Shown in pieces: positions 513-4,872 of a stretch of DNA of 64,000 nucleotides. How positions within the stretch are numbered: position 1 is the first letter of the stretch; the number at the start of each line of letters is the position of its first letter. Made by a program: the position numbers and the translations under genes. Source of the DNA: Providencia hangzhouensis (GTDB taxonomy: Bacteria > Pseudomonadota > Gammaproteobacteria > Enterobacterales > Enterobacteriaceae); the NCBI RefSeq assembly GCF_029193595.2, contig NZ_CP135052.1:2232001-2296000 (forward strand). The letters are read 5' to 3'. The notes beneath the pieces were generated by a model. That model was given only the letters and a program-made list of their open reading frames with translations, was not told the DNA's origin and did no database searches.

Positions 513-2555
513 ATGAACAAACTTCTTAAAATTGCATTGGTGGTAAGTCTAGCGACTTTTGGCAGTGCAATAGCTAATACTCAAGCAGTGGCTCCGGTCA
601 CTGCGGCTCAGTTACCTGTCTTAAAACAGAGTGCACAGCACGGTACTGTGAGTGAAAGGGTCACCTCTCGGTTTACTCGCTCACATTATCGCCAATTCGA
701 TTTAGACAATGCGTTTTCTGGGAAGATATTTGATCGTTATCTCAATATGTTAGATTTCGGTCATAATGTTTTACTTCAATCCGATATTGACCAATACGCC
801 AAAGATAAAGGCAAAGTGGGTCAGTGGCTTGAGGATGGCAAATTAGATACGTTCTATGACCTGTATAACCTGTCTCAGGAAAGACGTTTCGAGCGCTTTA
901 AATATGCATTGGCTCGTTTAGAGCAACCCATCGATTTAAATGCGACTGATTCTATTGAAGTTGACCGTTCAAAATCACCATGGCCTAAAGATAAGCAAGA
1001 GCTTGATCGTCTATGGGACCAAAAAGTGCGTTATGATTGGTTGAATTTAAAACTATCAGGTAAAGATGATAAAGAAATCAAAGAGAAACTGACAAAACGC
1101 TATAATTTTGCGTTGCGGCGTTTAACGCAAGCGCAAAGTGAAGACGTTTTTCAATTGATAGTTAACTCTTTCGCTCGTGAAATTGATCCACACACAAGTT
1201 ATCTGTCGCCTCGTAATACTGAACAATTTAATTCAGAAATGAGCTTATCATTAGAAGGAATTGGTGCGGTATTACAGCAAGATGACGAAAATACGGTTAT
1301 TAACTCATTAGTTGCTGGGGGGCCAGCTGCTAAAAGTAAAGAGCTAAAAGTCGGCGATAAAATTATCGGTGTTGGCCAAACGGGTAAACCTATTGTTGAT
1401 GTGGTTGGCTGGCGCCTTGATGATGTGGTTGCTTTAATTAAAGGCCCGAAAGGAAGTAAAGTTCGGTTAGAAGTCGTTTCTGATACTAAAGGGGCGAAAC
1501 CTCATATTGTCACCATAGTTCGGGAGCAGATCCGACTGGAAGACCGAGCAGTCAAACTGACGATTAAACAGCAAGGTAAAGATAAAGTTGCTGTTTTAGA
1601 TATTCCTGGTTTTTATGTTGGTTTAACCAATGATGTTAAAACTCAATTGCAAAACTTGGCTAAAGATAATGTTTCCGCATTGGTTATTGATTTACGCGGT
1701 AATGGTGGTGGAGCATTAACCGAAGCGGTCTCTTTATCAGGTTTGTTTATTCCGAAAGGGCCAATTGTTCAAGTTCGTGATAATAACGGTCAAGTTCGCC
1801 AAGATATTGATGATGACGATGTTATTTATTATAAGGGGCCTCTTGTTGTTTTAGTCGACCGCTTTAGTGCATCCGCATCTGAGATTTTTGCTGCAGCAAT
1901 GCAAGATTATGGCAGAGCGATGATTGTTGGGGAACCGACCTTTGGTAAAGGAACTGTTCAGCAGCACCGTAGTTTGAGCCGTGTTTACGATCAAATGCTA
2001 AAACCAGAATGGCCTTCATTAGGTTCTGTCCAATATACCATTCAGAAGTTTTACCGAGTTAATGGTGGTAGCACACAACGTGAAGGTGTAACCCCTGATG
2101 TGATAATGCCTACAGGCCAAGACCCAGCTGAAACTGGAGAAAGCTTTGAGGACAATGCATTACCATGGGATAGTATTCCACCGGCAAAATATACACCTGT
2201 TGGTAATGTGTCTTCTGATTTATCACCAATAAAAACTCAGCATTTGGCACGTATTAGCAAAGACCCTGAATTCAACTATATTGATGAAGATATTGCTCGC
2301 TATAAAGTAAACAAAGAGAGTAAGAATCTTATTTCGCTCAACTATGCAGAGCGCCAAAAAGAAGATTCAGAACTTGAAGCGACAAAATTGAAACGTATAA
2401 ATGAACGTAATACTCGGGAAGGTAAACCACTATTGAAATCAATTGATGATTTGCCTAAAGATTACGAGGGGCCAGACCCATACCTCGATGAAACGGTGAA
2501 AATGGCGATCGACTTAGCTAATCAACATACTAAGCTATTATCAAATAATAAATAA
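513..2555 (+). CDS. prc: Tail-specific periplasmic protease Prc (Tsp)
   Basis: 680 residues, essentially the E. coli Prc length (682). An N-terminal signal peptide covers about residues 1-22. A PDZ domain lies at about 245-330 and the S41-type protease core follows. The catalytic Ser/Lys dyad is readable as S454 in FSASASEIF and K479 in PTFGKGTVQQ, 25 residues apart as in the family. Prc degrades periplasmic proteins with nonpolar C-termini, processes penicillin-binding protein 3, and with NlpI controls peptidoglycan hydrolases. The RBS is GGAGGTC-like (cggaggtcaatcaggtc) before ATG 513. It sits 19 bp behind proQ, and a strong hairpin terminator follows the stop. Confidence 0.97.
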   Translation: MNKLLKIALVVSLATFGSAIANTQAVAPVTAAQLPVLKQSAQHGTVSERVTSRFTRSHYRQFDLDNAFSGKIFDRYLNMLDFGHNVLLQSDIDQYAKDKGKVGQWLEDGKLDTFYDLYNLSQERRFERFKYALARLEQPIDLNATDSIEVDRSKSPWPKDKQELDRLWDQKVRYDWLNLKLSGKDDKEIKEKLTKRYNFALRRLTQAQSEDVFQLIVNSFAREIDPHTSYLSPRNTEQFNSEMSLSLEGIGAVLQQDDENTVINSLVAGGPAAKSKELKVGDKIIGVGQTGKPIVDVVGWRLDDVVALIKGPKGSKVRLEVVSDTKGAKPHIVTIVREQIRLEDRAVKLTIKQQGKDKVAVLDIPGFYVGLTNDVKTQLQNLAKDNVSALVIDLRGNGGGALTEAVSLSGLFIPKGPIVQVRDNNGQVRQDIDDDDVIYYKGPLVVLVDRFSASASEIFAAAMQDYGRAMIVGEPTFGKGTVQQHRSLSRVYDQMLKPEWPSLGSVQYTIQKFYRVNGGSTQREGVTPDVIMPTGQDPAETGESFEDNALPWDSIPPAKYTPVGNVSSDLSPIKTQHLARISKDPEFNYIDEDIARYKVNKESKNLISLNYAERQKEDSELEATKLKRINERNTREGKPLLKSIDDLPKDYEGPDPYLDETVKMAIDLANQHTKLLSNNK

Positions 2556-2580
2556 TATTCTCTTAGTGTTTAACGGAATT

Positions 2581-2608
2581 AAGCCAGCGAAAGCTGGCTT
2601 AATTTTTT
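2581..2608 (+). terminator. Rho-independent terminator of proQ-prc
   Basis: Perfect 8-bp stem AAGCCAGC/GCTGGCTT with a GAAA tetraloop, followed by a T-rich run (aattttttga). It lies 25 bp after the prc stop. Confidence 0.9.
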
Positions 2609-2841
2609 GAGTTTCTTTAACGCTATCTTAATCCGCTTAGAAAATAGAAAATCAAATGTTAATTTATTGTTAATTTTGGTGTTTTTAGTCAGTAGCTATT
2701 AAATTAGTGCAGTTTTATTCTTTATTTATTTTATTTTCCAAAACGACTGACTGAAATTGATGATTAATTATAGGTTTCTTTACCTTTACTTAATTTATCC
2801 TAAACTTTTGGTATAGCTTTCCTTAACAACGAGACAATACC

Positions 2842-3573
2842 ATGCGTAAATTATTTGTAGGATTAATGGCAGTTAGTGTAATGATGATTGCATCTATTAA
2901 TACAGCGAATGCAAGAAATTACCCATGTTCTGGAAGTAAAGGGGGAATAGATCGCTGTGAAGATGGTAAATTTATTTGTAATGATGGTTCAACAAGTCGC
3001 TCAGAGCAAGTGTGTACCATAGAATTAAAAAATGATATTAACAGCAAAGCGAAAGCGGCTGGTGCTTCGATTGGTGCAGGTGTTGCTAAACAATCAAGTA
3101 AACCATCGGTTTCTGACTCAATAAAGAGCACGAGTGATAAAGCCAGTAAAACAGCCTCTGATAAAGCAAGCAAAGCCAGTAAAACAGCCTCTGATAAAGC
3201 AAGCAAAGCCAGTGATAAAGCATCAGATACAGCTAAGATAGTAAAAGAAAAAGCCGCTAAAACGACAGATAAAGAATCAGCAAAAGCGGTGAAAGAAAAA
3301 GCTAGCAAAGCGACAGATAAAGAATCAGTAAAAGCGGTGAAAGAAAAAGCTAGCAAAACGGCAGATAAAGAGCCAGCAAAAGCAGTGAAAGAGAAAGCTA
3401 GCAAAACGACAGATAAAGAGCCAGCAAAAGCAGTGAAAGAGAAAGCTAGCAAAGCGGCAGATAAAGAATCAGCAAAAGCGGTAAAAGAAAAAGCGTCTAA
3501 AGCCAAAGATAAAGAAACAGCTAAGACAGCAAAAGAGAAATCAACAAAATCGACTAAAGAGAAAACTAATTAG
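2842..3573 (+). CDS. Secreted YdcA-like protein with a Lys/Ala-rich tandem-repeat tail
   Basis: 243 residues with no assigned function. A clear signal peptide ends near ANA-24. Residues 25-60 form a small four-cysteine domain (C29, C39, C46, C58; YPCSGSKGGI...FICNDGS) that I recognise as resembling E. coli YdcA, a protein of about 57 residues that ends there. The rest is a highly basic, low-complexity tail: an 11-residue unit (SKTASDKASKA) twice, then seven 16-residue units of the type AKAVKEKASKATDKES at residues 131-242. The tail composition recalls histone-H1-like bacterial proteins such as AlgP or Hc2, but the signal peptide puts this one in the periplasm or outside the cell. The repeats make the opposite strand open for 195 codons by chance. 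It has its own terminator and appears monocistronic. Confidence 0.85.
   Translation: MRKLFVGLMAVSVMMIASINTANARNYPCSGSKGGIDRCEDGKFICNDGSTSRSEQVCTIELKNDINSKAKAAGASIGAGVAKQSSKPSVSDSIKSTSDKASKTASDKASKASKTASDKASKASDKASDTAKIVKEKAAKTTDKESAKAVKEKASKATDKESVKAVKEKASKTADKEPAKAVKEKASKTTDKEPAKAVKEKASKAADKESAKAVKEKASKAKDKETAKTAKEKSTKSTKEKTN
3142..3207 (+). repeat. Perfect 33-bp tandem duplication
   Basis: Two identical adjacent 33-bp copies (3142-3174 and 3175-3207), each encoding 11 residues, lie inside the repeat-protein gene. A partial third copy (gccagt) follows. Complete identity suggests recent slippage duplication. Confidence 0.92.
3232..3567 (+). repeat. Seven 48-bp in-frame tandem repeats
   Basis: Seven consecutive 48-bp units each encode 16 residues (consensus AKAVKEKASKATDKES). 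The central five are almost identical at DNA level, while the outer two have diverged. The array fills residues 131-242 of the secreted Lys-rich protein. Confidence 0.9.
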
Positions 3574-3610: not shown

Positions 3611-3639
3611 AGTGCCACTTAATGTGGCATTATTTTTTA
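3611..3639 (+). terminator. Rho-independent terminator of the repeat-protein gene
   Basis: Stem TGCCAC/GTGGCA, extended by A-T and G-T pairs, with loop TTAAT, followed by tattttttaa. Confidence 0.85.
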
Positions 3640-3990: not shown

Positions 3991-4872
3991 ATGATGAGAA
4001 TTGCTTTATTCTTACTCACAAACTTAGCGGTTATGTTTGTGTTTGGGATAATCCTAAGCTTAACTGGGATCAGAGGTAGTAGTGTCCAAGGCCTCATGAT
4101 CATGGCTGGCCTATTTGGTTTTGGTGGTGCTTTCATATCACTACTGATGTCCAAATGGATGGCTCTAAAATCAGTGGGTGGTGAGGTTATTGAAACTCCA
4201 CGTAACCAAACAGAACAGTGGTTAGTATCAACTGTTGAGCGTCAAGCAAAACAAGTTGGAATTCAGATGCCACAAGTGGCTATTTATCATGCTCCAGATA
4301 TTAACGCGTTTGCAACAGGGGCTCGCCGTGATGCTTCGCTTGTTGCAGTAAGTACTGGGCTATTAGAGAATATGAGCCGTGATGAGGCTGAAGCTGTTAT
4401 CGCTCATGAAATTAGCCACATCGCGAATGGTGACATGGTGACGATGACCTTATTACAAGGTGTGGTGAACACGTTCGTCATCTTTATTTCACGTATTATC
4501 GCACAGGTTGCGGCAGGCTTTATGTCCAACAGTGATAACGAAAGTGAAAGTAGTAATGGTAACCCAATGGTTTATTTTGCGGTTTCCATGGTACTTGAAA
4601 TCGTCTTCGGTATTTTGGCAAGCATCATTACTATGTGGTTCTCTCGTTATCGTGAGTTCCATGCGGACGCGGGTTCTGCAAAATTAGTCGGCCGTGAAAA
4701 GATGATAGCTGCATTGCAACGGTTGAAAACGAGCTATGAGCCACAAGAAGAAGGCCGTTTGATGGCGTTTTGCATCAATGGTCGTGGTAAAGCATTCAGT
4801 GAATTATTTTTATCACACCCACCATTAGACAAACGTATTGAAGCATTGCGCTCAGGTGAATATTTAAAATAG
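3991..4872 (+). CDS. htpX: Membrane zinc metalloprotease HtpX
   Basis: 293 residues, the same length as E. coli HtpX and near-identical over the N-terminal half by eye. Two N-terminal membrane segments (about residues 4-24 and 34-55) precede the M48 protease domain. The zinc motif HEISH is at H139-E140-H143, with the downstream glutamate in REFHAD. Two more hydrophobic segments lie at about 155-215. HtpX works alongside FtsH in removing damaged inner-membrane proteins under envelope stress. Start ATG 3991 has aaggaa upstream; a second ATG three bases later is less likely. It follows prc as in E. coli, except for the inserted repeat-protein gene. Confidence 0.97.

Follow-up and report, generated by a model that had tools for sequence, protein, structure and literature searches.

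A YdcA-family protein with a variable Lys/Ala repeat tail, predicted to be exported, in Providencia

A gene of Providencia hangzhouensis encodes a tailed form of the known, uncharacterized YdcA family. It occupies 2842..3573 (plus strand, ATG start) of the 64,000-nucleotide stretch that we analysed (the window), part of a 4.6 Mb genome, and its 243-residue product joins a predicted signal peptide and a YdcA-type four-cysteine head to a long tail of Lys/Ala repeats, with head and tail both kept by selection. In the literature searched, nothing was found on this Providencia protein or on the function of the YdcA domain, in agreement with the original prediction that something undescribed lies here. 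Our preferred reading, to which we assign a probability of roughly 0.4, is that of a stationary-phase envelope protein: the signal peptide would send the protein to the periplasm; its own promoter, probably of the sigma-S type, would drive expression in stationary phase or under stress; the head would dock on an envelope partner; and the flexible tail, as a cationic brush, would bind anionic polymers (LPS, peptidoglycan or DNA that enters the periplasm) and so stabilize the envelope under stress.

The protein is laid out in consecutive parts, all on the plus strand. Residues 1-24 (2842..2913) have the features of a signal peptide by motif, namely MRK, a hydrophobic core and A-x-A at residues 22-24, with predicted cleavage after ANA. 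The A-x-A is present in 18/18 Providencia orthologues as ANA, ASA or ATA, so that the signal peptide proposed earlier holds at the level of the motif, and export to the periplasm is likely. The four-cysteine head follows (residues 25-64, 2914..3033; Cys 29, 39, 46 and 58), then a linker containing a short helix predicted by AlphaFold2 (residues 60-74) and a Ser/Lys-rich stretch (3034..3138), 11-residue repeats (3139..3237) and about seven 16-residue repeats of the type KESAKAVKEKASKATD (3225..3570), the outer ones degenerate. About 180 residues of repeats had been expected; the long Lys/Ala tail is real, and strict repeats cover only about residues 98-243. No Pfam model was found for the protein or for the tail alone (E up to 1), in scans where the bias filters of HMMER may hide repeats. 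An antisense open reading frame over head and repeats (2919-3506, minus strand, 195 codons) was rejected because the selection signal sits in the plus-strand frame; it is a stop-free shadow of the repeat composition.

The flanking genes are those originally named: upstream prc, for a tail-specific protease (513..2555, plus strand; NF008388, 1082.5 bits), and downstream htpX, for a membrane zinc metalloprotease (3991..4872, plus strand; NF003965, 476.1 bits), both over the NCBIfam cut-offs. The link drawn from this placement is weakened, as a shared operon is unlikely: an intrinsic terminator with a 14-pair stem and a T tract stands after prc (2575..2606, plus strand, terminator scan), and a conserved promoter-like block stands before the gene. 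Over the 70 nt upstream of the ATG, identity between clades (7 versus 6 of the 18 loci) is 0.73 against 0.60 when shuffled, and the two next 70-nt stretches upstream are at the shuffled level (0.63/0.63 and 0.59/0.60). A sigma-S-like extended -10 element, CCTAAACTT (2799..2807, plus strand; also given as CTAAACTT), was recognized by conservation at a fixed place, CTA(A/C)ACTT beginning 40-43 nt upstream of the ATG in 18/18 orthologous loci. For comparison, the sigma-38 consensus is reported as CTACACTT (PMC2759082) and the RpoS -10 as CTAcacT (PMC3533512). It is important to note that the match is short and CTAMACTT is not enriched in the 64-kb window (2 observed versus 5.3 expected), so the weight rests on conservation at a fixed place, in genomes that are related. 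A sigma-70 scan gave 4 promoter-like sites versus 5.7 expected, none convincingly placed, and rpoS is present in the same genome, over cut-off. Together, the terminator after prc and the conserved -10 element suggest that the gene has its own transcript, probably under sigma-S control in stationary phase or stress. Behind the gene, a stem-loop read by eye (TGCCAC-TTAAT-GTGGCA, then a T tract; 3613..3638, plus strand) may be its terminator; the terminator scan gave a minus-strand match only at this stem. A PhoP-type regulation was also considered, because a TGTTAA-N5-TGTTAA direct repeat some 185 nt upstream of the ATG looked like a PhoP box; it was dropped, as the 18 upstream regions do not have the repeat at a constant position.

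The head places the protein in its family. Residues 1-64 share 52% identity with E. coli YdcA, and the head matches the YdcA-type models of NCBIfam (PRK10040) at E values of 1.3e-16 (NF007463), 4e-13 (NF007462) and 3.3e-11 (NF007464), in line with the YdcA-like domain that had been read from the letters. Because the scores lie below the curated equivalog cut-offs of NF007462-NF007464 (60.1 bits versus 93, 49.3 versus 118, 43.9 versus 168), the protein is a YdcA relative and not an equivalog. Two further weak NCBIfam matches (E 0.0041 and 0.25) are in the tail and seem to reflect its composition. The phage family phrog_6000 was matched by 16/16 heads scanned, residues 1-64 of our protein included (E up to 0.01). 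By these matches the head is a diverged member of the YdcA/phrog_6000 family. In an alignment of 46 family members, its four cysteines belong to 13 invariant columns, the invariant residues being C, KGG, F, DG and SxS. In the AlphaFold2 model the head is small and two-stranded (block pLDDT 88-90 at residues 31-50, mean 77, pTM 0.48), and its roughly 35 residues probably fold round two disulfides.

The head has two remote matches. The PDB chain 7muc_AN, which carries the deposited name 'Neurogenic locus notch (protein homolog)' in an entry for a Legionella Dot/Icm secretion complex, matches the 46-head profile at E 6.4e-4, the other 7 matches being at E 0.25 or worse, and by this profile a shared fold is possible. 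The metal-binding TerY_C was matched by P0012 (E 0.0052) and by 3/16 heads (best 0.0031); it was set aside because the matches are under the Pfam cut-off where shown, and because equally many heads match an unrelated family.

The charge of the head sets the Providencia form apart. Between the first and fourth Cys, non-Providencia heads carry +1 to +7, with a mean of +3.3 (88 distinct heads drawn from 158 pattern-matched ones, loci L061-L223, the Providencia locus L130 excluded), versus -1 to 0 in the 9 distinct Providencia heads, and the common SxSKK of family heads is replaced by SRSEQ in Providencia. Compared in this way, the positive charge has moved from head to tail.

In the window, the tail comprises six in-register 144-nt copies at 48-nt (16-residue) spacing and the 33-nt (11-residue) repeats, two of them identical and one at 73%. 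It contains 30% Lys, 16% Asp+Glu, 9% Glu and 25% Ser+Thr, with a net charge of +0.13 per residue; in short, it is a weakly cationic polyampholyte. The tails of the 18 orthologues, counted from residue 85, contain 28-34% Lys, 11-25% Ala and 16-22% Asp+Glu, with a net charge of +11 to +27, that is, a modest +0.10 to +0.17 per residue, and aromatic residues, Cys and His are absent from all 18. Every tail has at least 99 residues, and lengths are roughly 100-180. The repeat unit is 16 residues in some species, about 18 in another group and 5 in G004; because it differs between clades, a fixed binding motif has not been conserved. Within a single species, two genomes are set apart by one 11-mer and one 16-mer (243 versus 216 residues). 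As judged from these alignments, composition is kept while repeat units turn over, and length shifts by gain or loss of whole repeats.

The same composition speaks against the histone-H1-like character first given to the tail. Histone-H1-like bacterial proteins, such as AlgP and Hc2, are cytoplasmic, with basic tails that contain hardly any acidic residues. The Lys/Ala repeats would suit a cytoplasmic DNA-binding protein of this type, in which the N-terminus is no working signal; however, the tail is 16% acidic, the signal motif and the four-Cys head are conserved, and no histone-like Pfam or NCBIfam model matches, so we hold this explanation to be highly improbable. In none of the homologues did the tail turn out to be a cytoplasmic DNA-binding domain of a known kind.

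The long helix that had also been suggested for the tail is not what AlphaFold2 gives: residues 75-243 are coil, with block pLDDT of 39-49 from residue 71 on, in a method that is weak on low-complexity sequence and gives no proof here. The tail is probably flexible or disordered by this model. A claim of an amphipathic helix was dropped. The helix-band peak was above all 300 shuffles in two orthologues (L010 and L016) and above all but 4 in a third (L012), and it was matched by 29/300 shuffles for the window's tail and by 66/300 for TolA; the repeats by themselves produce harmonics (16/4, 18/5) and are lost on shuffling, which makes the test unfair.

A hydrophilic, probably disordered tail could also serve in another way, with its charge incidental, in a periplasmic protectant of the LEA or hydrophilin kind that binds water and hinders aggregation in drying or osmotic stress. 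The mature protein is very hydrophilic (Kyte-Doolittle mean -1.14), 11-residue repeats occur among the tail units, the promoter element is sigma-S-like, the tail is modelled as low-confidence coil, and there is a precedent in Zmo0994, an LEA-like protein reported to carry a periplasmic signal sequence (PMC7448490). Hydrophilins are defined, as quoted in the same source, by Gly above 6% and a hydrophilicity index above 1. The Providencia protein is as hydrophilic as this definition asks, but its mature form contains 3.7% Gly, with none in residues 85-243; one of four orthologues measured (L010, mature 6.3% Gly) exceeds the Gly limit, and no LEA Pfam model matches the full protein or the tail (E up to 1). 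We regard this alternative as possible, if on the whole rather unlikely.

That the tail has been selected is indicated by substitution patterns. Pooled over all pairs of the 18 orthologues, pN/pS is 0.11 for the head, 0.33 for the tail and 0.54 for the signal peptide. Among units 2-6 of the window's array it is 0.26, and in eight chosen orthologue pairs the tail value is 0.04-0.36; the repeat alignment is uncertain, so that tail values are rough. If the tail were mostly a product of slippage tolerated by selection, a spacer without particular function on a protein whose head alone matters, repeat number and unit might vary between species, as they do, and even within one species, as in the pair of 243 and 216 residues. 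Against this stand the length of at least 99 residues in 18/18, the composition held while units change and the pN/pS of the eight chosen pairs, and we consider the spacer explanation quite unlikely.

With residues 1-64 as the query, 18/24 Providencia genomes match, all 18 with a tail; because the gene is present in this many genomes of the genus and substitutions are mostly synonymous, the observation goes beyond chance. In the local DNA around the locus, prc and htpX lie on opposite sides of the gene in 17/18, and one locus (L008, from G020) shows htpX only. The gene is dispensable, since 6/24 genomes (G001, G002, G009, G013, G019 and G021) are without it and have 180-446 nt from the last aligned Prc codon to HtpX. 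In an htpX tree (733-750 nt), the six gene-less genomes stand on one side of a weak branch (64/86; 60% of 200 bootstraps), and a single loss or a single gain within Providencia is possible on this topology. Separately, htpX of G009 (L057/L058) is in two overlapping pieces, either a broken gene or an assembly error.

Other searches extended this picture. Another search matched 18/60 genomes, where the tail-only match of G001 was left out of the orthologues and G060 counts only in the 18/24 of the head query; in a wider family sample, the head was matched in 12/99 genomes, two of these Providencia. The 110-residue repeat part alone matched 14/24 genomes of the genus, always at the prc-htpX locus, and failed in G003, G004, G008 and G016, which have the gene, because their repeats have diverged. 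The G001 match (E 6e-4, 35%, residues 61-188) is found outside the prc-htpX locus, and on its account such repeats may be shared more distantly. With the full protein as the query, 11 plasmid records were matched, each covering no more than 24% of the query, at its head end. A protein search, which scored the 7991 candidates sharing most words, gave 14 matches, 12 of them orthologue-like and two with other extensions. Six of these 14 homologues (P0001, P0003, P0004, P0007, P0008 and P0009) bear the name 'cell envelope biogenesis protein TolA', which looks wrong because the protein encoded in the window lacks the TolA domain, and which was probably drawn from the Lys/Ala repeats.

Scans with the head matched 256 genome-contig and 451 viral-contig stretches, and the best 80 of each were taken as loci, a sample in which rarer architectures may be missed. 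Parsing succeeded for 76/79 non-Providencia genome loci: in 37 the protein stops after the head, in 19 a second Cys domain follows, in 14 the head is followed by a Lys-rich linker and a Cys motif, in 2 by an Endonuclease_NS domain, and 4 are others. Two of the second-Cys-domain loci (L112 and L096) were compared with Pfam, where L112 passes the cut-off of PBCV_basic_adap. Among the viral loci, 79/80 were parsed and 68 have no extension (L111, L131, L132 and L174 were unparsed, and L130, from Providencia, was left out of the counts). No long Lys/Ala repeat tail was found in the 155 parsed non-Providencia loci from the best 80 of 256 and the best 80 of 451, and among the loci parsed a Lys-rich repeat tail on a YdcA head is thus seen in Providencia only. 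The head is otherwise combined with various partners, for example a 44-residue Lys/Gln/Thr-rich extension in Moraxella (L089), Endonuclease_NS (L125:1732-2652 and L139:2995-3930) and SNase (P0014). A YdcA-type gene (L154:2084-2761) also lies directly downstream of an SNase gene, and an SNase gene is near the head gene in 7/163 loci, a rate that has no control. In five Acinetobacter loci (L078, L079, L080, L111 and L119), a DUF4236-like gene comes immediately after the YdcA-like gene; such a gene is near the head gene in 26/163 loci and is Pfam-confirmed in L155:3187-3510.

The phage context of the family may be a more valuable lead than the tailed protein. Matches to the head include 25 phage records, and the order CI - YdcA-like - integrase on one strand occurs in 18/80 viral loci (best 80 of 451) versus 3/80 genome loci (best 80 of 256; L091, L093 and L107). 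Fourteen of the 18 are of the L181 type (L181, L199, L201, L203-L206, L208-L212, L214 and L216), with both neighbours, CI and integrase, Pfam-confirmed in L181, and four are of the HP2 type (L195, L200, L202 and L213). Relatives of CI and integrase are both present in 19/80 viral and 3/80 genome loci, and in the viral locus L207 both lie on one side. In Haemophilus phage HP2 (AY027935.1, 2486-2668; L221:2601-2783), an unannotated YdcA-like reading frame starts at the last base of cI, on the same strand, ahead of orf1(S) and int. The promoter before cI is annotated as driving genes for lysogeny maintenance, and by position the YdcA-like copy would be on the cI transcript. In Moraxella phage Mcat15, the YdcA-like copy is among coat and tail genes.

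It has therefore to be weighed whether the Providencia gene is a captured prophage accessory gene, with a head from temperate phages that alters the lysogen envelope, for example by hindering entry of phage or DNA, and a tail that holds incoming DNA. The 451 viral-contig relatives, the gene order in 18/80 viral loci and the HP2 copy speak for it, and the nuclease fusions and SNase neighbours tie the head to secreted nucleases. But the other 62/80 viral loci are without this order, the Mcat15 copy sits elsewhere, the SNase rate has no control, the place on the cI transcript in HP2 is read from position, no PADLOC anti-phage model was matched by 16 heads (E up to 0.1), and in Providencia the gene is directly flanked by prc and htpX. 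We consider this origin and function unlikely. A combined form, a phage-derived exported exclusion module in which the captured YdcA head and the cationic disordered tail hold incoming phage or transforming DNA in the periplasm under stationary-phase control, is in our view very unlikely; if it were true, lysogens would express a so far overlooked class of envelope proteins, the YdcA family.

Returning to the stationary-phase envelope protein that we prefer, a close analogue of its tail is found in TolA, which, as reported in PMC3477136, has exported Lys/Ala-rich tandem repeats of variable copy number. Domain II of TolA and the Providencia tail are alike in this, and TolA, together with the signal-bearing, LEA-like Zmo0994 (PMC7448490), provides precedents that make export less unexpected than originally thought. 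TolA is membrane-anchored, with an uncleaved N-terminus from which the Providencia protein, with its conserved A-x-A cleavage motif, would differ. The C-terminal PF06519 domain of TolA is absent from the Providencia protein, and the TolA match of the same genome, over cut-off, is at another locus. In that TolA, domain II (182 residues, limits hand-chosen) contains 24% Glu and 12% Gln with a net charge of +0.02 per residue, whereas the Providencia tail has its 9% Glu, 25% Ser+Thr and +0.13. In E. coli, the TolA repeat number is reported to alter tolerance to deoxycholate, SDS and osmolarity (PMC3477136); such tuning of envelope stress tolerance makes the brush reading testable, without proving it. 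With Zmo0994 and the hydrophilins, the Providencia protein shares hydrophilicity and a link to stress or stationary phase, and with Zmo0994 also a signal sequence (PMC7448490), but it differs from hydrophilins and LEA proteins in its lower Gly content, the lack of an LEA model match and its cysteine head.

The head itself is best compared with E. coli YdcA, described as a 57-residue, predicted periplasmic protein that has a signal sequence and no known function (PMC11340327). In E. coli W, ydcA deletion severely reduces growth with 300 mM 3-hydroxypropionate, a defect that deletion of yieP overrides (PMC7642389), which counts against the view that the family has no phenotype, and up-regulation of ydcA at pH 5 under YdcI is cited in the same paper. 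Both proteins have a signal peptide and a four-Cys domain with the same invariant residues, but E. coli YdcA ends at the domain, whereas the Providencia protein adds the repeat tail to a head without basic charge; and ydcA flanks rydC in E. coli (PMC11340327), whereas the Providencia gene sits between prc and htpX. The enterobacterial 132-residue YdcA variants (L065, L070 and L072) likewise join a YdcA head to a Lys-rich linker, but this linker is short, has no repeats and is followed by a second Cys-containing motif at the end. Set beside these relatives, the Providencia form is a natural experiment, in which a repeat-variable Lys-rich tail has been placed on a YdcA domain and selected across most of a genus; if the tail binds envelope polymers or DNA, it would give a handle on the role of the domain and on its place beside phage repressors.
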